Assembly (NCBI GenBank): GCA_947627905.1
Contig: CANQXX010000002.1
Location: forward strand, 1-64,000
Length of the DNA: 64,000 bases
Direction: 5' to 3'
Source of the DNA: an uncultured Clostridia bacterium
GTDB taxonomy: Bacteria > Bacillota > Clostridia > Oscillospirales > Ruminococcaceae
Shown here: positions 18,310-42,169 of the stretch, piece after piece
How positions within the stretch are numbered: position 1 is the stretch's first letter
Layout: each line of letters starts with the position of its first letter
Notes under the pieces: generated by a model
Database searches by the model: none
Told to the model about the DNA's origin: nothing
What the model saw: only the letters and a program-made list of their open reading frames with translations
Translations under genes and position numbers: made by a program

Positions 18310-18687
18310 ATCTGACGATCAAAATAAAAGAGGTCTAACCTCCGGATCGCCGAATAATATCGGTGATCGGGACGATAGACCTCGTGGTGCCACCCGTTTT
18401 TACGGAATTAAAAAATTCCGCCTCATTGGATACAGACTGATGCGGAACTTCAACATTTTTGTTAAAACAGTTCAAGTACGCCGCTAATGCAGTTATACCC
18501 TATCCACTAACGCAGGAAATCGGCGCGGACTACTTGGGAAATTAATATCACCCGTTTGCCGTTGCTTCTCACAAACCCATTCACAGATACCGTTATGATC
18601 CGCACTCACACCAACGGCGGATTCTCTGATACATCAGCATATCTGCTACTTACTTTTGATCGTCGAATTTAAAAATATTAAATTACG
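18310..18687 (-). promoter_or_regulatory. T-box leader (probably tRNA-Trp responsive) of the trp operon
   Basis: Minus strand has the T-box core GGGTGGCACCACG (rc of 18383-18395), a following terminator GAGGTCTA...TAGACCTCTTTTA, and a candidate TGG specifier in GTGAATGGGTT; directly upstream of trpE. Confidence 0.9.
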
Positions 18688-24821: not shown

Positions 24822-25039
24822 TTATCTTCTAAAATAACCGCCTTGCCGCCATGTGAAGCATAAAACCCGCACTCAGCAGGTGGGCAACAGCCCATCAGTT
24901 TCACGCTCCCTGCGTCCGTTGTTCCCCACATCTAATGGGGCGGGAGGTCTGCAATCCGCTGACGGAGACTGAATCCCTTTATTTATGTGTTGGATTATAA
25001 AATCACACTTTATCGGACAAGGCAGAAATTCATTTTCTG
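24822..25039 (-). ncRNA. ssrS: Probable 6S RNA
   Basis: About 218 nt between a TTGATT-17-TATAAT promoter (25046-25074, minus) and a strong terminator; no ORF. Closing stem GCCTTG(t)CCG...GTGTGA / TTCACAT..CGGCAAGGC, apical CCCCATtagATGTGGGG, and 3'-side small hairpins GGGCtgttGCCC and ACCTGCtgagtGCGGGT, as in Firmicute 6S RNAs. Confidence 0.62.
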
Positions 25040-25169: not shown

Positions 25170-25496
25170 TTATTCTTCTTCATCTTCATCGTAAATGTCA
25201 TTAAGACGTTCAAGGAACATATTTCCTATACGTTCATATTCTTCGTCATTGTCGATAGAAACGAGAGTTTCTTCATTGTTTTCGTCATATTCGGATTTGA
25301 GAACTACAAGCTCCGTATCTTCGGCAAGCTGGGCAGCCGGGTCACTGCTATAAGGAACAAGCGCATAATAACGTTCGCCGTCCACGTCCATAGTGTCAAG
25401 AAGTTCAAACTGCTGCTCGACGCCTTCCTCGTCCTCAAGGGTATAGATGTCGGCAAGCATATCCATATCGTCGTTCATATTATTCATATCCGGCAT
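25170..25496 (-). CDS. DUF1292 domain-containing acidic protein
   Basis: DIYTLEDEEGVEQQFELLDTMDVDGERYYALVPY pattern of DUF1292. Confidence 0.88.
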   Translation of the reverse strand: MPDMNNMNDDMDMLADIYTLEDEEGVEQQFELLDTMDVDGERYYALVPYSSDPAAQLAEDTELVVLKSEYDENNEETLVSIDNDEEYERIGNMFLERLNDIYDEDEEE

Positions 25497-25642: not shown

Positions 25643-25671
25643 TTGACATTGCACAATATCTGTGATATATT
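25643..25671 (+). promoter_or_regulatory. Strong sigma-A promoter of the repeat-array transcript
   Basis: TTGACA (25643-25648), 17-nt spacer, TATATT (25666-25671). Confidence 0.75.
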
Positions 25672-25958: not shown

Positions 25959-26027
25959 ATGGAGGATGTAATTGAACAGCAGTTTACTCAGGCAGTCCGC
26001 AGCGACTCGTTTACAGCTTTGCTTTAA
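25959..26027 (+). CDS. Candidate 22-aa small ORF in the array transcript
   Basis: gggtggcgagtccaATGGAGGATG...: MEDVIEQQFTQAVRSDSFTALL*; its start region resembles the array element (GAGTCCAATGG). Confidence 0.35.
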   Translation: MEDVIEQQFTQAVRSDSFTALL

Positions 26028-26314: not shown

Positions 26315-26356
26315 ATGAGAAAACTTAATATAGGTATCAGATACGTTATGAATTGA
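26315..26356 (+). CDS. Candidate micro-ORF MRKLNIGIRYVMN
   Basis: SD agaggtga; stop 7 nt before GGAGTGAG element. Confidence 0.35.
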   Translation: MRKLNIGIRYVMN

Positions 26357-26424
26357 TGTGATTGGAGTGAGACCACCTGACAGGTTAATTTCTTCCTGAT
26401 ATTGAATTTTAAGAAGGGATGCAT

Positions 26425-26466
26425 ATGAGGTATTTTGAATATGCGTATCACGATCTGAATATCTGA
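26425..26466 (+). CDS. Candidate micro-ORF MRYFEYAYHDLNI
   Basis: SD aagaaggga; stop 13 nt before next element. Confidence 0.35.
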   Translation: MRYFEYAYHDLNI

Positions 26467-26570
26467 ATGAATTTTGAAAGAGGTGAGTCCGACAGGACGT
26501 GCATAACGGTTTTGACCGATACGGAAAAAATCTATCGGGTGTTTCCCGTTAAGAATTGAGTGATCTTCAA

Positions 26571-26606
26571 ATGGTAATGAGAAAGGCTTTTAACAGAAAA
26601 ATCTGA
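26571..26606 (+). CDS. Candidate micro-ORF MVMRKAFNRKI
   Basis: Stop 7 nt before GGAGTGAG element at 26614; weak SD. Confidence 0.28.
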   Translation: MVMRKAFNRKI

Positions 26607-26687
26607 TAAAGCAGGAGTGAGTCCAATGGCATAGTTTGCGGCTTCAATGCCTTAATGAATTTACAATTCCAAAAGGAGTCGGTTTAT

Positions 26688-26729
26688 ATGATCTGTTCAA
26701 TAACTGTACTGAAGGAATTTGATTTTTAA
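26688..26729 (+). CDS. Candidate micro-ORF MICSITVLKEFDF
   Basis: SD aaaaggag; TAA abuts GGAGTGAG element at 26730. Confidence 0.35.
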   Translation: MICSITVLKEFDF

Positions 26730-26792
26730 GGAGTGAGTCCAATGGCATAGTCTTATTCTCTTGATGAATATTTCCGAAGGAGCTGTTGCTTT

Positions 26793-26825
26793 ATGCGCAG
26801 AAAATTTTACAGTAAGAAATATTGA
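26793..26825 (+). CDS. Candidate micro-ORF MRRKFYSKKY
   Basis: SD gaaggag; stop 7 nt before element at 26833. Confidence 0.35.
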   Translation: MRRKFYSKKY

Positions 26826-26901
26826 TTTTATGGGAGTGAGTCCAATGGCATAAGTACAGATGTTCCGCTTTATCGTTTAATTCTGAAAGGAAGCGGTGTC
26901 T

Positions 26902-26934
26902 ATGAAAAATGTTCGGAGTTATTTGAAAATCTGA
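26902..26934 (+). CDS. Candidate micro-ORF MKNVRSYLKI
   Basis: SD aaagga; stop 6 nt before element at 26941. Confidence 0.35.
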   Translation: MKNVRSYLKI

Positions 26935-27001
26935 AAGATCGGAGTGAGACCACCAGAACATTTAGTTGTGCTGCAAAGCCATATTTAATTAAAATAGATT
27001 G

Positions 27002-27033
27002 ATCCGCAGGATGTTGCTCCTGCGGATTTTTGA
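27002..27033 (+). terminator. Intrinsic terminator of the array transcript
   Basis: ATCCGCAGGatgttgctCCTGCGGATTTTT. Confidence 0.85.
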
Positions 27034-27050
27034 TTTATATGCAATTTGTT

Positions 27051-27079
27051 TTGACTATTTCTGCGTTACTGCATATAAT
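27051..27079 (+). promoter_or_regulatory. asnB promoter
   Basis: TTGACT-17-TATAAT between the array terminator and asnB. Confidence 0.75.
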
Positions 27080-29134: not shown

Positions 29135-29443
29135 ATGTCTGAAAATAGATCGTGCGAATGCTGCGAAAAGTCTACCATGCGTTCAGATGATGAAAAAAAG
29201 AAACTTATACACCGTCTCAACCGTATCGAGGGACAGATACGCGGCATACGGGGAATGATCGAAAACAACGCTTACTGCACGGACGTGCTTATCCAGTCGG
29301 CAGCGGTAAATTCAGCGGTAAATTCCTTTAACAGGGAGCTTATTGCAAGCCATATCAAAGGCTGCGTCACAAGGGATATCCGCGACGGCAAGGAAGATGT
29401 GGTAGACGAGCTGGTACTTACTTTGCAGAAGCTAATGAAATAG
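29135..29443 (+). CDS. csoR: Metal-sensing transcriptional repressor (CsoR/FrmR family)
   Basis: LIHRLNRIEGQIRGIRGMIENNAYCTDVLIQ...SHIKGCVTRDI. Confidence 0.9.
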   Translation: MSENRSCECCEKSTMRSDDEKKKLIHRLNRIEGQIRGIRGMIENNAYCTDVLIQSAAVNSAVNSFNRELIASHIKGCVTRDIRDGKEDVVDELVLTLQKLMK

Positions 29444-29453
29444 AGGTGTGACT

Positions 29454-31946
29454 ATGACACAGTTCAATGTTACCGGCATGAGCTGCGCCGCCTGCAGCGC
29501 AAGGGTCGAAAAAGCAGTTTCGGGCGTAGCGGGAGTGACTTCATGCTCCGTCAGCCTGCTGACTAATTCTATGGGCGTTGAAGGTACTGCCGCTCCGGAG
29601 GAGATCATATCCGCTGTTGAAAAAGCCGGATATGGAGCGTCGCTGAAAACTTCATCTTCGTATAAGACCCGTACTTCTCCGGCTGATGATGCTCTTGCGG
29701 ATAAAGAAACTCCTAAATTGAAAAAACGTCTTATTGCGTCGCTTGTTTTTCTGGCAGTTTTAATGTATTTTTCTATGGGACATATGATGTGGGGCTGGAA
29801 AATACCTGCATGGTTTGATGGAAATCATGTTGCCATGGGTATGCTGCAAATGCTTCTTGCAGGCATTGTAATGGTCATAAACCAGAAATTTTTCATAAGC
29901 GGTTTTAAAGGACTTATCCACCGTTCGCCAAACATGGATACGCTTGTTGCCATGGGTTCTATGACGTCTTTTCTGTGGAGCGTTTATGTCCTTTTTGAAA
30001 TGACGGACGCTCAGCTTCACGGAGATCACGAAGCGGTGATGTCATATATGATGGATCTGTATTTTGAGTCCGCAGCAATGATATTAGCTTTGATAACTCT
30101 TGGAAAGATGCTTGAATCCTATTCAAAGGGCAAGACTACCAATGCCCTGAAAGGTCTTATGAAACTTTCTCCTAAAACTGCCGTTATAATAAAGGACGAA
30201 AATGAAATTACCGTTCCTATAGAGCAGGTCCGCAAGGGCGATATTTTTGTGGTAAGACCGGGAGAAAATATTCCTACAGACGGAATAGTCATAGACGGCA
30301 GCAGCGCCGTAAATGAATCTGCGCTTACCGGTGAAAGCATTCCCGTTGACAAGGCAGCAGGGGACAGTGTTTCTGCCGCAACGGTAAACAGATCTGGTTT
30401 TTTGAAATGTGAAGCTACCCGTGTAGGCGAAGATACTACTCTTTCACAGATAATTAAAATGGTAAGTGATGCGGCAGTAACAAAAGCTCCTATCGCCAAA
30501 ATAGCGGATAAGGTCTCGGGAATTTTTGTTCCTGCGGTAATAGGTATTGCTGCTGTCACTCTTATAGTATGGCTTGCCGCAGGGCAAACCGCCGGTTATG
30601 CTCTTGCAAGAGCAATTTCCGTTCTTGTAATAAGCTGCCCATGCGCTCTCGGACTTGCCACTCCTGTGGCAATAATGGTTGGCAACGGAGTCGGCGCACG
30701 AAACGGCATACTGTTCAAAAATGCAGTTTCCCTTGAAGAAACAGGAAAAATTAAAATAGCAGCGCTTGACAAGACCGGAACTATCACAAAGGGCGAACCG
30801 GAGGTCACAGATATTTTTCCGGCGGAAGATCTTTCCGAAAATGATTTTCTGACTATTGCCGCATCGCTTGAAAATAAAAGCGAACATCCCCTTGCAGGAG
30901 CGGTGATGAAAAAAGCTGCCGAAAAAAATATTTCTCCGGAAGAAGTTTCGGATTTTAAGGCATTTTCGGGAAACGGACTTTCCGCAGTTATGGACGGAAA
31001 GACCATAACCGGCGGAAGCGTAAAGTTCATATCTGAAAATACAACAGTTCCGGAGGATATCCTTTCCCGTGCCGACGCATTGTCTGAAAAAGGAAAAACG
31101 CCTGTGCTTTTCACTTCCGACGGAAAATTCATAGGTATGATAGCTGCCGCCGACGTTATCAAAGAGGATAGTTACGAAGCAATAAAGGAACTTAGGGAAA
31201 TGGGAATAAGGGTAGTAATGCTTACCGGCGACAATGAGCGCACCGCAAAAGCTATCGGCGAACAGGCAGGCGTTGATGAGGTCATTGCCGGCGTACTTCC
31301 TGACGGAAAGGAAAGCGTTATCCGTTCATTGCAGGAACAGGGCAGGACGGCAATGGTGGGCGACGGTATCAACGACGCTCCTGCGCTTACAAGAGCGGAT
31401 ATAGGCATTGCAATAGGAGCAGGTGCTGACATTGCAATAGATGCGGCGGATGTCGTTCTTGTAAAAAGCAGGCTGAGCGATGTTCCGGCGGCTGTGCGCC
31501 TCAGCAGAGCGGCGCTAAGAAATATCCACGAAAATCTTTTCTGGGCATTTTTCTATAACGTTATAGGTATTCCTCTTGCTGCCGGCGTATGGATACCTAT
31601 ATTCGGCTGGACGCTCAACCCGATGTTCGGAGCGGCGGCTATGAGCCTGTCGAGCTTCTGCGTAGTTACGAACGCATTAAGGCTCAATCTTTTCAAAGTG
31701 AACAGCAGAGCAAAGGATAATGCCGATACACCGGAAAATATGCGTATCATAAAAATAAAGGGCATGATGTGCGAACACTGTGAAGCCCGTATAAAAGGCG
31801 CTCTGGAAGCTCTTCCGGAGATAAATTCTGCGAAGGCAGACTATAAAAAAGGAACGGCTGTTGTTTCAATAAATTCCGATATAGACGCTGAAAAAGTCCG
31901 TTCGGCAATTGAGGAACAAGGTTATAAATTCAAATCTATAAAATAA
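29454..31946 (+). CDS. copA: Copper-translocating P-type ATPase with N- and C-terminal HMA domains
   Basis: GMSCAACSARVEKA, CPCALGLATPVA, DKTGTITKGE, GDGINDAPAL, C-terminal GMMCEHCEARIKGAL. Confidence 0.95.
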   Translation: MTQFNVTGMSCAACSARVEKAVSGVAGVTSCSVSLLTNSMGVEGTAAPEEIISAVEKAGYGASLKTSSSYKTRTSPADDALADKETPKLKKRLIASLVFLAVLMYFSMGHMMWGWKIPAWFDGNHVAMGMLQMLLAGIVMVINQKFFISGFKGLIHRSPNMDTLVAMGSMTSFLWSVYVLFEMTDAQLHGDHEAVMSYMMDLYFESAAMILALITLGKMLESYSKGKTTNALKGLMKLSPKTAVIIKDENEITVPIEQVRKGDIFVVRPGENIPTDGIVIDGSSAVNESALTGESIPVDKAAGDSVSAATVNRSGFLKCEATRVGEDTTLSQIIKMVSDAAVTKAPIAKIADKVSGIFVPAVIGIAAVTLIVWLAAGQTAGYALARAISVLVISCPCALGLATPVAIMVGNGVGARNGILFKNAVSLEETGKIKIAALDKTGTITKGEPEVTDIFPAEDLSENDFLTIAASLENKSEHPLAGAVMKKAAEKNISPEEVSDFKAFSGNGLSAVMDGKTITGGSVKFISENTTVPEDILSRADALSEKGKTPVLFTSDGKFIGMIAAADVIKEDSYEAIKELREMGIRVVMLTGDNERTAKAIGEQAGVDEVIAGVLPDGKESVIRSLQEQGRTAMVGDGINDAPALTRADIGIAIGAGADIAIDAADVVLVKSRLSDVPAAVRLSRAALRNIHENLFWAFFYNVIGIPLAAGVWIPIFGWTLNPMFGAAAMSLSSFCVVTNALRLNLFKVNSRAKDNADTPENMRIIKIKGMMCEHCEARIKGALEALPEINSAKADYKKGTAVVSINSDIDAEKVRSAIEEQGYKFKSIK

Positions 31947-31960
31947 ATGGAGGAATAGCA

Positions 31961-32215
31961 ATGTACAAAACAATCCTTGAAGTTGAAGGCATGATGTGCG
32001 GCCACTGTGAGGCGCACGTCAATGACACAGTAAGAAAATCATTTGATGTGAAAAAAGTCACATCTTCTCACAGCAAAGGACAGACGGAAATTATTTCCGA
32101 ATCGCCGCTCGATGAGGAAAAGCTCAAGGCTGCGATAAACGAAACAGGCTATACTGTAAATTCGGTAAAAACAGAAGAATTTGACAAAAAAGGCTTTTCA
32201 CTTTTCAATAAATAA
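31961..32215 (+). CDS. HMA-domain copper chaperone-like protein
   Basis: VEGMMCGHCEAHVNDTV. Confidence 0.88.
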   Translation: MYKTILEVEGMMCGHCEAHVNDTVRKSFDVKKVTSSHSKGQTEIISESPLDEEKLKAAINETGYTVNSVKTEEFDKKGFSLFNK

Positions 32216-41995: not shown

Positions 41996-42023
41996 TTTCT
42001 GCCGTACAAATTGAATAATATGT

Positions 42024-42150
42024 TTCAGGGCGAGGTGCAATTCCTCACCGGCGGTAATGGGACGGCAGTCCTTAGTCCGCGAGCGGATAGCGATATCCGC
42101 CGATCTGGTGCGATCCCAGAACCGACGGTACAGTCCGGATGAAAGAAACA
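42024..42150 (+). promoter_or_regulatory. FMN riboswitch (RFN element)
   Basis: TTTCAGGGCGAGGTGCAATTCCTCACCGGCGGTAAT...AGTCCGCGAGCG...GATCTGGTGCGATCCCAGAACCGACGGTACAGTCCGGATGAAAGAAAC. Confidence 0.97.
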
Positions 42151-42169
42151 ACACACATTTCAGTGCATT

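Follow-up and report, generated by a model that had tools for sequence, protein, structure and literature searches.

A predicted stand-alone RNA of Ruminococcaceae carrying an array of two-codon open reading frames, possibly selected for ribosome loading

The window, a stretch of 64,000 nucleotides from an uncultured Clostridia bacterium of the family Ruminococcaceae, contains an array of conserved boxes, the most complete of which is, as read from the sequence, a Shine-Dalgarno (SD) sequence followed by an ATG start, one codon (GCA), and a stop, i.e., a two-codon ORF. As it has its own promoter and its own terminator, the array is predicted to be a stand-alone transcription unit of approximately 1.35 kb, its transcription being inferred without expression data. 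The predicted anatomy of this array RNA, comprising mini-ORFs, boxes, longer ORFs, promoter, and terminator, is strongly supported and close to certain. In the best reading, the array RNA is highly transcribed, mRNA-like, and selected for ribosome loading, and it is possibly a ribosome trap. Ribosome loading as its function is a tentative assignment with a probability of about 0.4, as there are no expression, ribosome-profiling, or binding data, and transcription, translation, and abundance are all inferred. The evidence is wholly comparative, and most of the genomes used are metagenome assemblies.

A preliminary description of the locus had listed three near-identical copies of the element, at 26614, 26730, and 26833, the last with TAA in place of TAG. 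These copies are indeed exact over the 20-nt core GGAGTGAGTCCAATGGCATA, with 0 expected by chance (100 shuffles). The two variant copies GGAGTGAGACCACC(T/A)GA reported at 26364 and 26941 were likewise found, and the degenerate copy at 26480 reads GAGGTGAGTCCGACAGG, with GTGAGTCC retained. The variants were thought to bracket the array, which has to be revised, as the predicted transcript runs from ~25680 to ~27030 and extends beyond both. Its first ORF, ORF a at 25959, also starts GAGTCCAATGG. The proposed selection on the element is borne out by the genus alignment, in which the boxes are nearly invariant and kept in 20 of 21 genus genomes, while the divergent sequence between them has drifted to 65-80% identity with indels. 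The argument against a simple VNTR also stands: the spacing varies from 103 to 134 nt and the likeness is confined to the boxes, whereas in a VNTR entire units would be almost identical and regularly spaced. Two outcomes named beforehand as refuting, uniform decay of the element and an abundant genome-wide repeat, were checked and neither was seen. A dispersed genome-wide repeat is ruled out, as the three copies of GGAGTGAGTCCAATGGCATA are the only ones in the whole 2.06-Mb genome, in which no further match with up to 3 mismatches was found. Two things had been missed: the conserved element consists of a putative translation start with a two-codon ORF, and the spacers hold short ORFs whose frame is maintained. 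The layout of such a box is an extended SD sequence, GGAGUGAGUCC, one base, and then AUG, one codon, and a stop (Table 1).

Table 1. Predicted features of the array and its surroundings in the window
Feature	Position	Strand	Support or remark
6S RNA, frequent neighbour, just past the DUF1292 gene	24831..25031	-	Rfam search
Divergent DUF1292 gene, conserved neighbour	25170..25496	-	
Promoter of array RNA, TTGACA, 17 nt, TG-extended TATATT	25643..25671	+	same layout in 38/38 readable arrays
ORF a, 22 codons (MEDVIEQQFTQAVRSDSFTALL), start context GAGTCCAATGG	25959..26027	+	intact in 19/19 genus species, pN/pS 0.73
Small conserved hairpin GGAGT...ACTCC containing ATGTAA	26040..26078	+	GGAAGU/ACUUCC in L019, L020, L099
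ORF b, 13 codons (MRKLNIGIRYVMN)	26315..26356	+	intact in 19/19 species, pN/pS 0.80
Box without start codon, GGAGTGAGACCACCTGA	26364..26380	+	sequence, genus alignment, box count
ORF c, 13 codons (MRYFEYAYHDLNI), sole peptide with clear amino-acid selection	26425..26466	+	pN/pS 0.24, 19 species
Box without start codon, GAGGTGAGTCCGACAGG (degenerate copy)	26480..26496	+	sequence, genus alignment
ORF d, 11 codons (MVMRKAFNRKI)	26571..26606	+	intact, equal length in 19/19 species, pN/pS 0.90
Box and two-codon ORF ATG GCA TAG (26626-26634)	26614..26634	+	exact copy
ORF e, 13 codons (MICSITVLKEFDF), TAA abutting next box	26688..26729	+	ortholog alignment
Box and two-codon ORF ATG GCA TAG (26742-26750)	26730..26750	+	exact copy
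ORF f, 10 codons (MRRKFYSKKY)	26793..26825	+	ortholog alignment
Box and two-codon ORF ATG GCA TAA (26845-26853)	26833..26853	+	ATG GCT TGA in L019, L020
ORF g, 10 codons (MKNVRSYLKI)	26902..26934	+	3-nt indels in relatives
Terminal box without start codon, GGAGTGAGACCACCAGA	26941..26957	+	terminal boxes of other genera similar
Intrinsic terminator	27001..27030	+	retained in relatives, stems differing
Promoter-like site of asnB	27051-27079		asnB's own
asnB, 651-codon open frame	downstream of array, enzyme start about 27112		

The 17-nt spacer and the TG-extended -10 recur in every readable array, and TTGACA is present in 34 of the 38. The search pattern demands TTGAC and a -10-like hexamer; the independent part of this result is the spacer and the TG. 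In one genome (G157), the rRNA promoters have TTGACAAAC...AAAAAGTGTG-TATA in common with the promoter of the array, a likeness judged by eye. Such near-consensus promoters suggest strong expression, the abundance of the RNA being inferred. BLAST located the array in 20 of 21 genus genomes and in 1 of 40 others tested, and a family-wide pattern search together with inspected loci brings the count within the family to 19 genera or more. Related forms occur in two genomes of another family (L107 and the compact L138). Searching the whole order with the 14-nt motif matched few genomes; the motif is exact, and many arrays have variant boxes.

Over the 19 genera, 48 of 54 CCn-ATG/GTG sites close within three codons or fewer, giving 37 two-codon, 7 three-codon, and 4 one-codon ORFs (a single locus per genus, each array's first site excluded). 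Random 9-mers from the same regions gave a mean of 11.0 closed sites and a maximum of 22 in 1000 trials, and in viral contigs the identical 14-nt motif opens an ORF of at most three codons in 4 of 81 cases. Compared with these controls, the short-ORF rule is not a by-product of the motif. The context is also peculiar to the array, as CCn precedes ATG in only 2 of the 55 long ORFs of the window. Over all sites, 13 kinds of second codon occur, encoding residues including A, K, Y, E, R, V, N, Q, C, T, and I, and the stops are distributed as TAA 29, TGA 15, and TAG 7. With the second codon free and all three stops in use, it is "start-codon-stop" that selection retains.

The same holds in the genus alignment, where the stop is kept, though spelled differently, and the second codon changes. 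The changes seen that preserve M-X-stop are GCA TAG/TAA/TGA, GCT TGA, GTA TAA, and TCA TAA. Specifically, the first repeat occurs as ATG GCA TGA, ATG GTA TAA, and ATG TCA TAA, the third is ATG GCA TAA in most genus species (exceptions in Table 1), and another, more upstream box has ATG with CAC, TAC, CAG, AAG, or GGT and a stop.

Single boxes were also noted in L105 and L106 (on the minus strand of each locus), L149, and L150, reading MG-stop, MG-stop, MY-stop, or MV-stop and located behind promoter-like sequence or within the leader of a gene. As the viral control yields approximately 5% by chance, they are not claimed here; they may be due to chance or be related to the array element as single-copy forms.

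Among the boxes of 23 arrays, 50 are without an ATG and 41 have one, a few spurious sites being captured by the pattern. The usual terminal box is GGAGTGAG(T/A)CC(A/G)CC. The feature common to all boxes is the extended SD sequence and, as boxes lacking AUG are roughly as common as those with it, ribosome binding is the likely common factor. When AAGGAGUGAGUCC is paired with GGAUCACCUCCUU, the 16S tail as taken from relatives, the predicted energy is -12.2 kcal/mol; AAGGAG by itself reaches -7.8, and the perfect complement (AAGGAGGUGAUCC), which is not used by the boxes, -23.1. UGAGUCC beyond the SD core is conserved and not fully explained, since UCC cannot pair with the 16S tail when AUG is in the P site.

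In the proposed mechanism, 30S subunits would be drawn to the strong boxes, where they would bind in the absence of a start codon or begin translation. An initiating ribosome would make a peptide of two to about 20 residues, terminate immediately, and be recycled on that RNA. As the peptides are for the most part nearly neutral, the product would be the occupied ribosomes themselves. By analogy with 6S RNA and RNA polymerase, the array RNA would withhold or buffer free ribosomes or the capacity for initiation; its minimum role would be to keep itself ribosome-coated and stable. Ribosome loading, in the form of ribosome titration or of self-protection by the RNA, is the simplest account of an RNA on which entry, very short travel, and termination are repeatedly selected, whose promoter is strong, and whose downstream gene is not constant. 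A point against pure loading is the amino-acid selection on ORF c, which loading does not need. Together with the unexplained UGAGUCC extension, ORF c leaves other readings possible. The further-reaching proposal of a new RNA class, a ribosome trap in which an abundant transcript uses dead-end and start-X-stop sites to capture 30S subunits and so buffers free ribosomes as the translation counterpart of 6S RNA, is rather doubtful, the binding of 30S or 70S particles being inferred solely from the strong promoter and the SD complementarity.

Ribosomes on the mini-ORFs might instead merely shield the RNA from ribonucleases, the payload lying elsewhere, in the 5' domain or in one conserved peptide. 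Published precedents for which this has been proposed are the SD-bound ribosome before a six-codon ORF in LEE4 and the two-codon minigene in axe-txe (PMC8708949), and the array RNA does have a conserved 5' region. A single site would suffice for such protection, whereas the arrays hold many from end to end, of which roughly half lack AUG, and this reading is considered unlikely. In published minigenes, one two-codon ORF can act in cis, nuclease protection has been proposed, and strong ones can be toxic via peptidyl-tRNA release; for some, ribosome loading in cis has been suggested (PMC8708949). The axe-txe mg2, the minigenes in the ler and LEE4 leaders, ycbK, and lambda bar consist of an SD sequence, AUG, one or a few codons, and a stop. 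The array element likewise meets the definition of a two-codon minigene (SD, AUG, single sense codon, stop). It does not lie in the leader of a gene regulated in cis, given its own terminator and the lack of a constant downstream gene: known minigenes are single or paired in such leaders, whereas here they form arrays on a stand-alone RNA, mixed with AUG-less boxes and longer ORFs.

The 5' third of the RNA contains conserved non-ORF sequence without an assigned role. RNAalifold predicts a modest 5' domain of 24 pairs, one of them compensatory, and the repeat units show almost no covariation (covariation term about 0). The ORF a start region pairs with GACTCG/GGCTCG within ORF a, with wobble changes only. 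Between 26040 and 26190, the hairpin GGAGU-UUAAAUGUAA...ACUCC is followed by the conserved blocks GCGATTAGC, CTTAAAGTAT, and GAGCCGCA...GTGGTATTTTTATACCC. A search of the window and 18 related loci with Rfam 15 detected the adjoining 6S RNA and no match to the array above the gathering threshold, and no tRNA matches the array region. At the same threshold, the window also contains a T-box leader at 18365-18672 (-) and an FMN riboswitch at 42017-42154 (+). OLE, GOLLD, and ROOL are large bacterial RNAs of unclear function, some of them from Bacillota (PMC12286853). The array is similarly a large bacterial RNA of unclear function, but those RNAs are highly structured and non-coding, whereas no Rfam family matches the array, and conservation in it falls on start and stop signals. 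A structured large non-coding RNA of this kind was rejected because of the weak covariation.

Alternatively, peptides of 10 to 22 residues could be the products, with the two-codon ORFs tuning their translation through coupling. Interspersed with the boxes are seven ORFs of 10-22 codons, for which ortholog sets from 12-19 species were aligned, wrongly picked frames being removed by hand; the sets for ORFs e, f, and g are incomplete, and the ORF e start is deleted in one relative (L008). Otherwise the ORFs are intact in the genus, their lengths are mostly retained, stop codons interchange, and the alternative frames contain stops in most species, the single exception being frame +1 of ORF f. 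The pN/pS of 0.24 for ORF c (YAYHDLNI) supports peptide products, as do HDLN/HDMNI/HDENL-like peptide ends in other genera. The other six ORFs have values of 0.73-0.93, and no signal-peptide-like stretch was seen, judged by eye only. The longer ORFs are accordingly read as putatively under selection for frame and length, mostly not for residues, and a micropeptide operon is considered distinctly unlikely.

It is improbable that, by analogy with lambda bar and other toxic minigenes, peptidyl-tRNA released from the two-codon ORFs would lower translation via specific tRNAs. The most toxic published minigenes are two-codon ORFs with a strong SD and UAA (PMC8708949), but here the second codon is not fixed, which is evidence against a specific tRNA or dipeptide, and AUG is missing from about half of the boxes.

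A sponge for a GGA-binding protein of the CsrA type or for a box-complementary antisense RNA would fit the many GGA motifs within one RNA, as in CsrB/RsmZ-type sponges, and the conservation of AUG-less boxes. The array element differs in containing ORFs, and the stops behind variable codons indicate translation. CsrA was not found in this genome or in seven others (12 genomes searched), and the CsrA sponge was rejected, as PF02599 is absent from this 96% complete assembly (G000). A sponge of any kind is very improbable. A role as leader or attenuator for asnB or another gene downstream is hardly tenable and was rejected: although the array lies directly upstream of asnB with a terminator at its end, asnB has a separate promoter-like site, and no one gene is constantly found downstream in relatives, where it varies with the genus and often lies on the opposite strand.

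On the other side of the array, the DUF1292 gene is divergent from it in most array loci. A pairing of the two throughout the order was rejected, as the array is absent from most other families sampled; at the f13 loci, an infC-like gene (as read) takes its place beside DUF1292. 6S RNA adjoins the array in 11 of 18 loci at the gathering threshold, lying within about 1-2 kb in the window and ten related loci. The synteny of 6S RNA, DUF1292, and array may be ancestral or functional. 6S RNA (SsrS, RF00013) is a structured promoter mimic that occupies RNA polymerase, whereas the array is mRNA-like with weak covariation; apart from adjacency, the likeness is limited to the proposed logic of an abundant RNA occupying a central machine. 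Further along the window, 29135-32215 (+) holds an apparent copper cassette of a CsoR-like repressor, a P-type ATPase with MxCxxC domains, and a small copper-chaperone-like protein (translations read only).

Single start-X-stop ORFs in leaders are already known. Nothing close to tandem short-ORF arrays or start-stop elements in bacteria was found in the open-licence literature or Rfam 15, nor was an earlier account found in that literature of a dedicated RNA of start-X-stop arrays that is maintained in many genera through selection on its start and stop codons, with drift of the encoded residue. If ribosome loading is true, this would represent RNA-based control of translation capacity. If the array is a micropeptide operon instead, conserved peptides of about a dozen residues would have been missed by gene callers. 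In either reading, the array is unannotated yet common in gut Clostridia.
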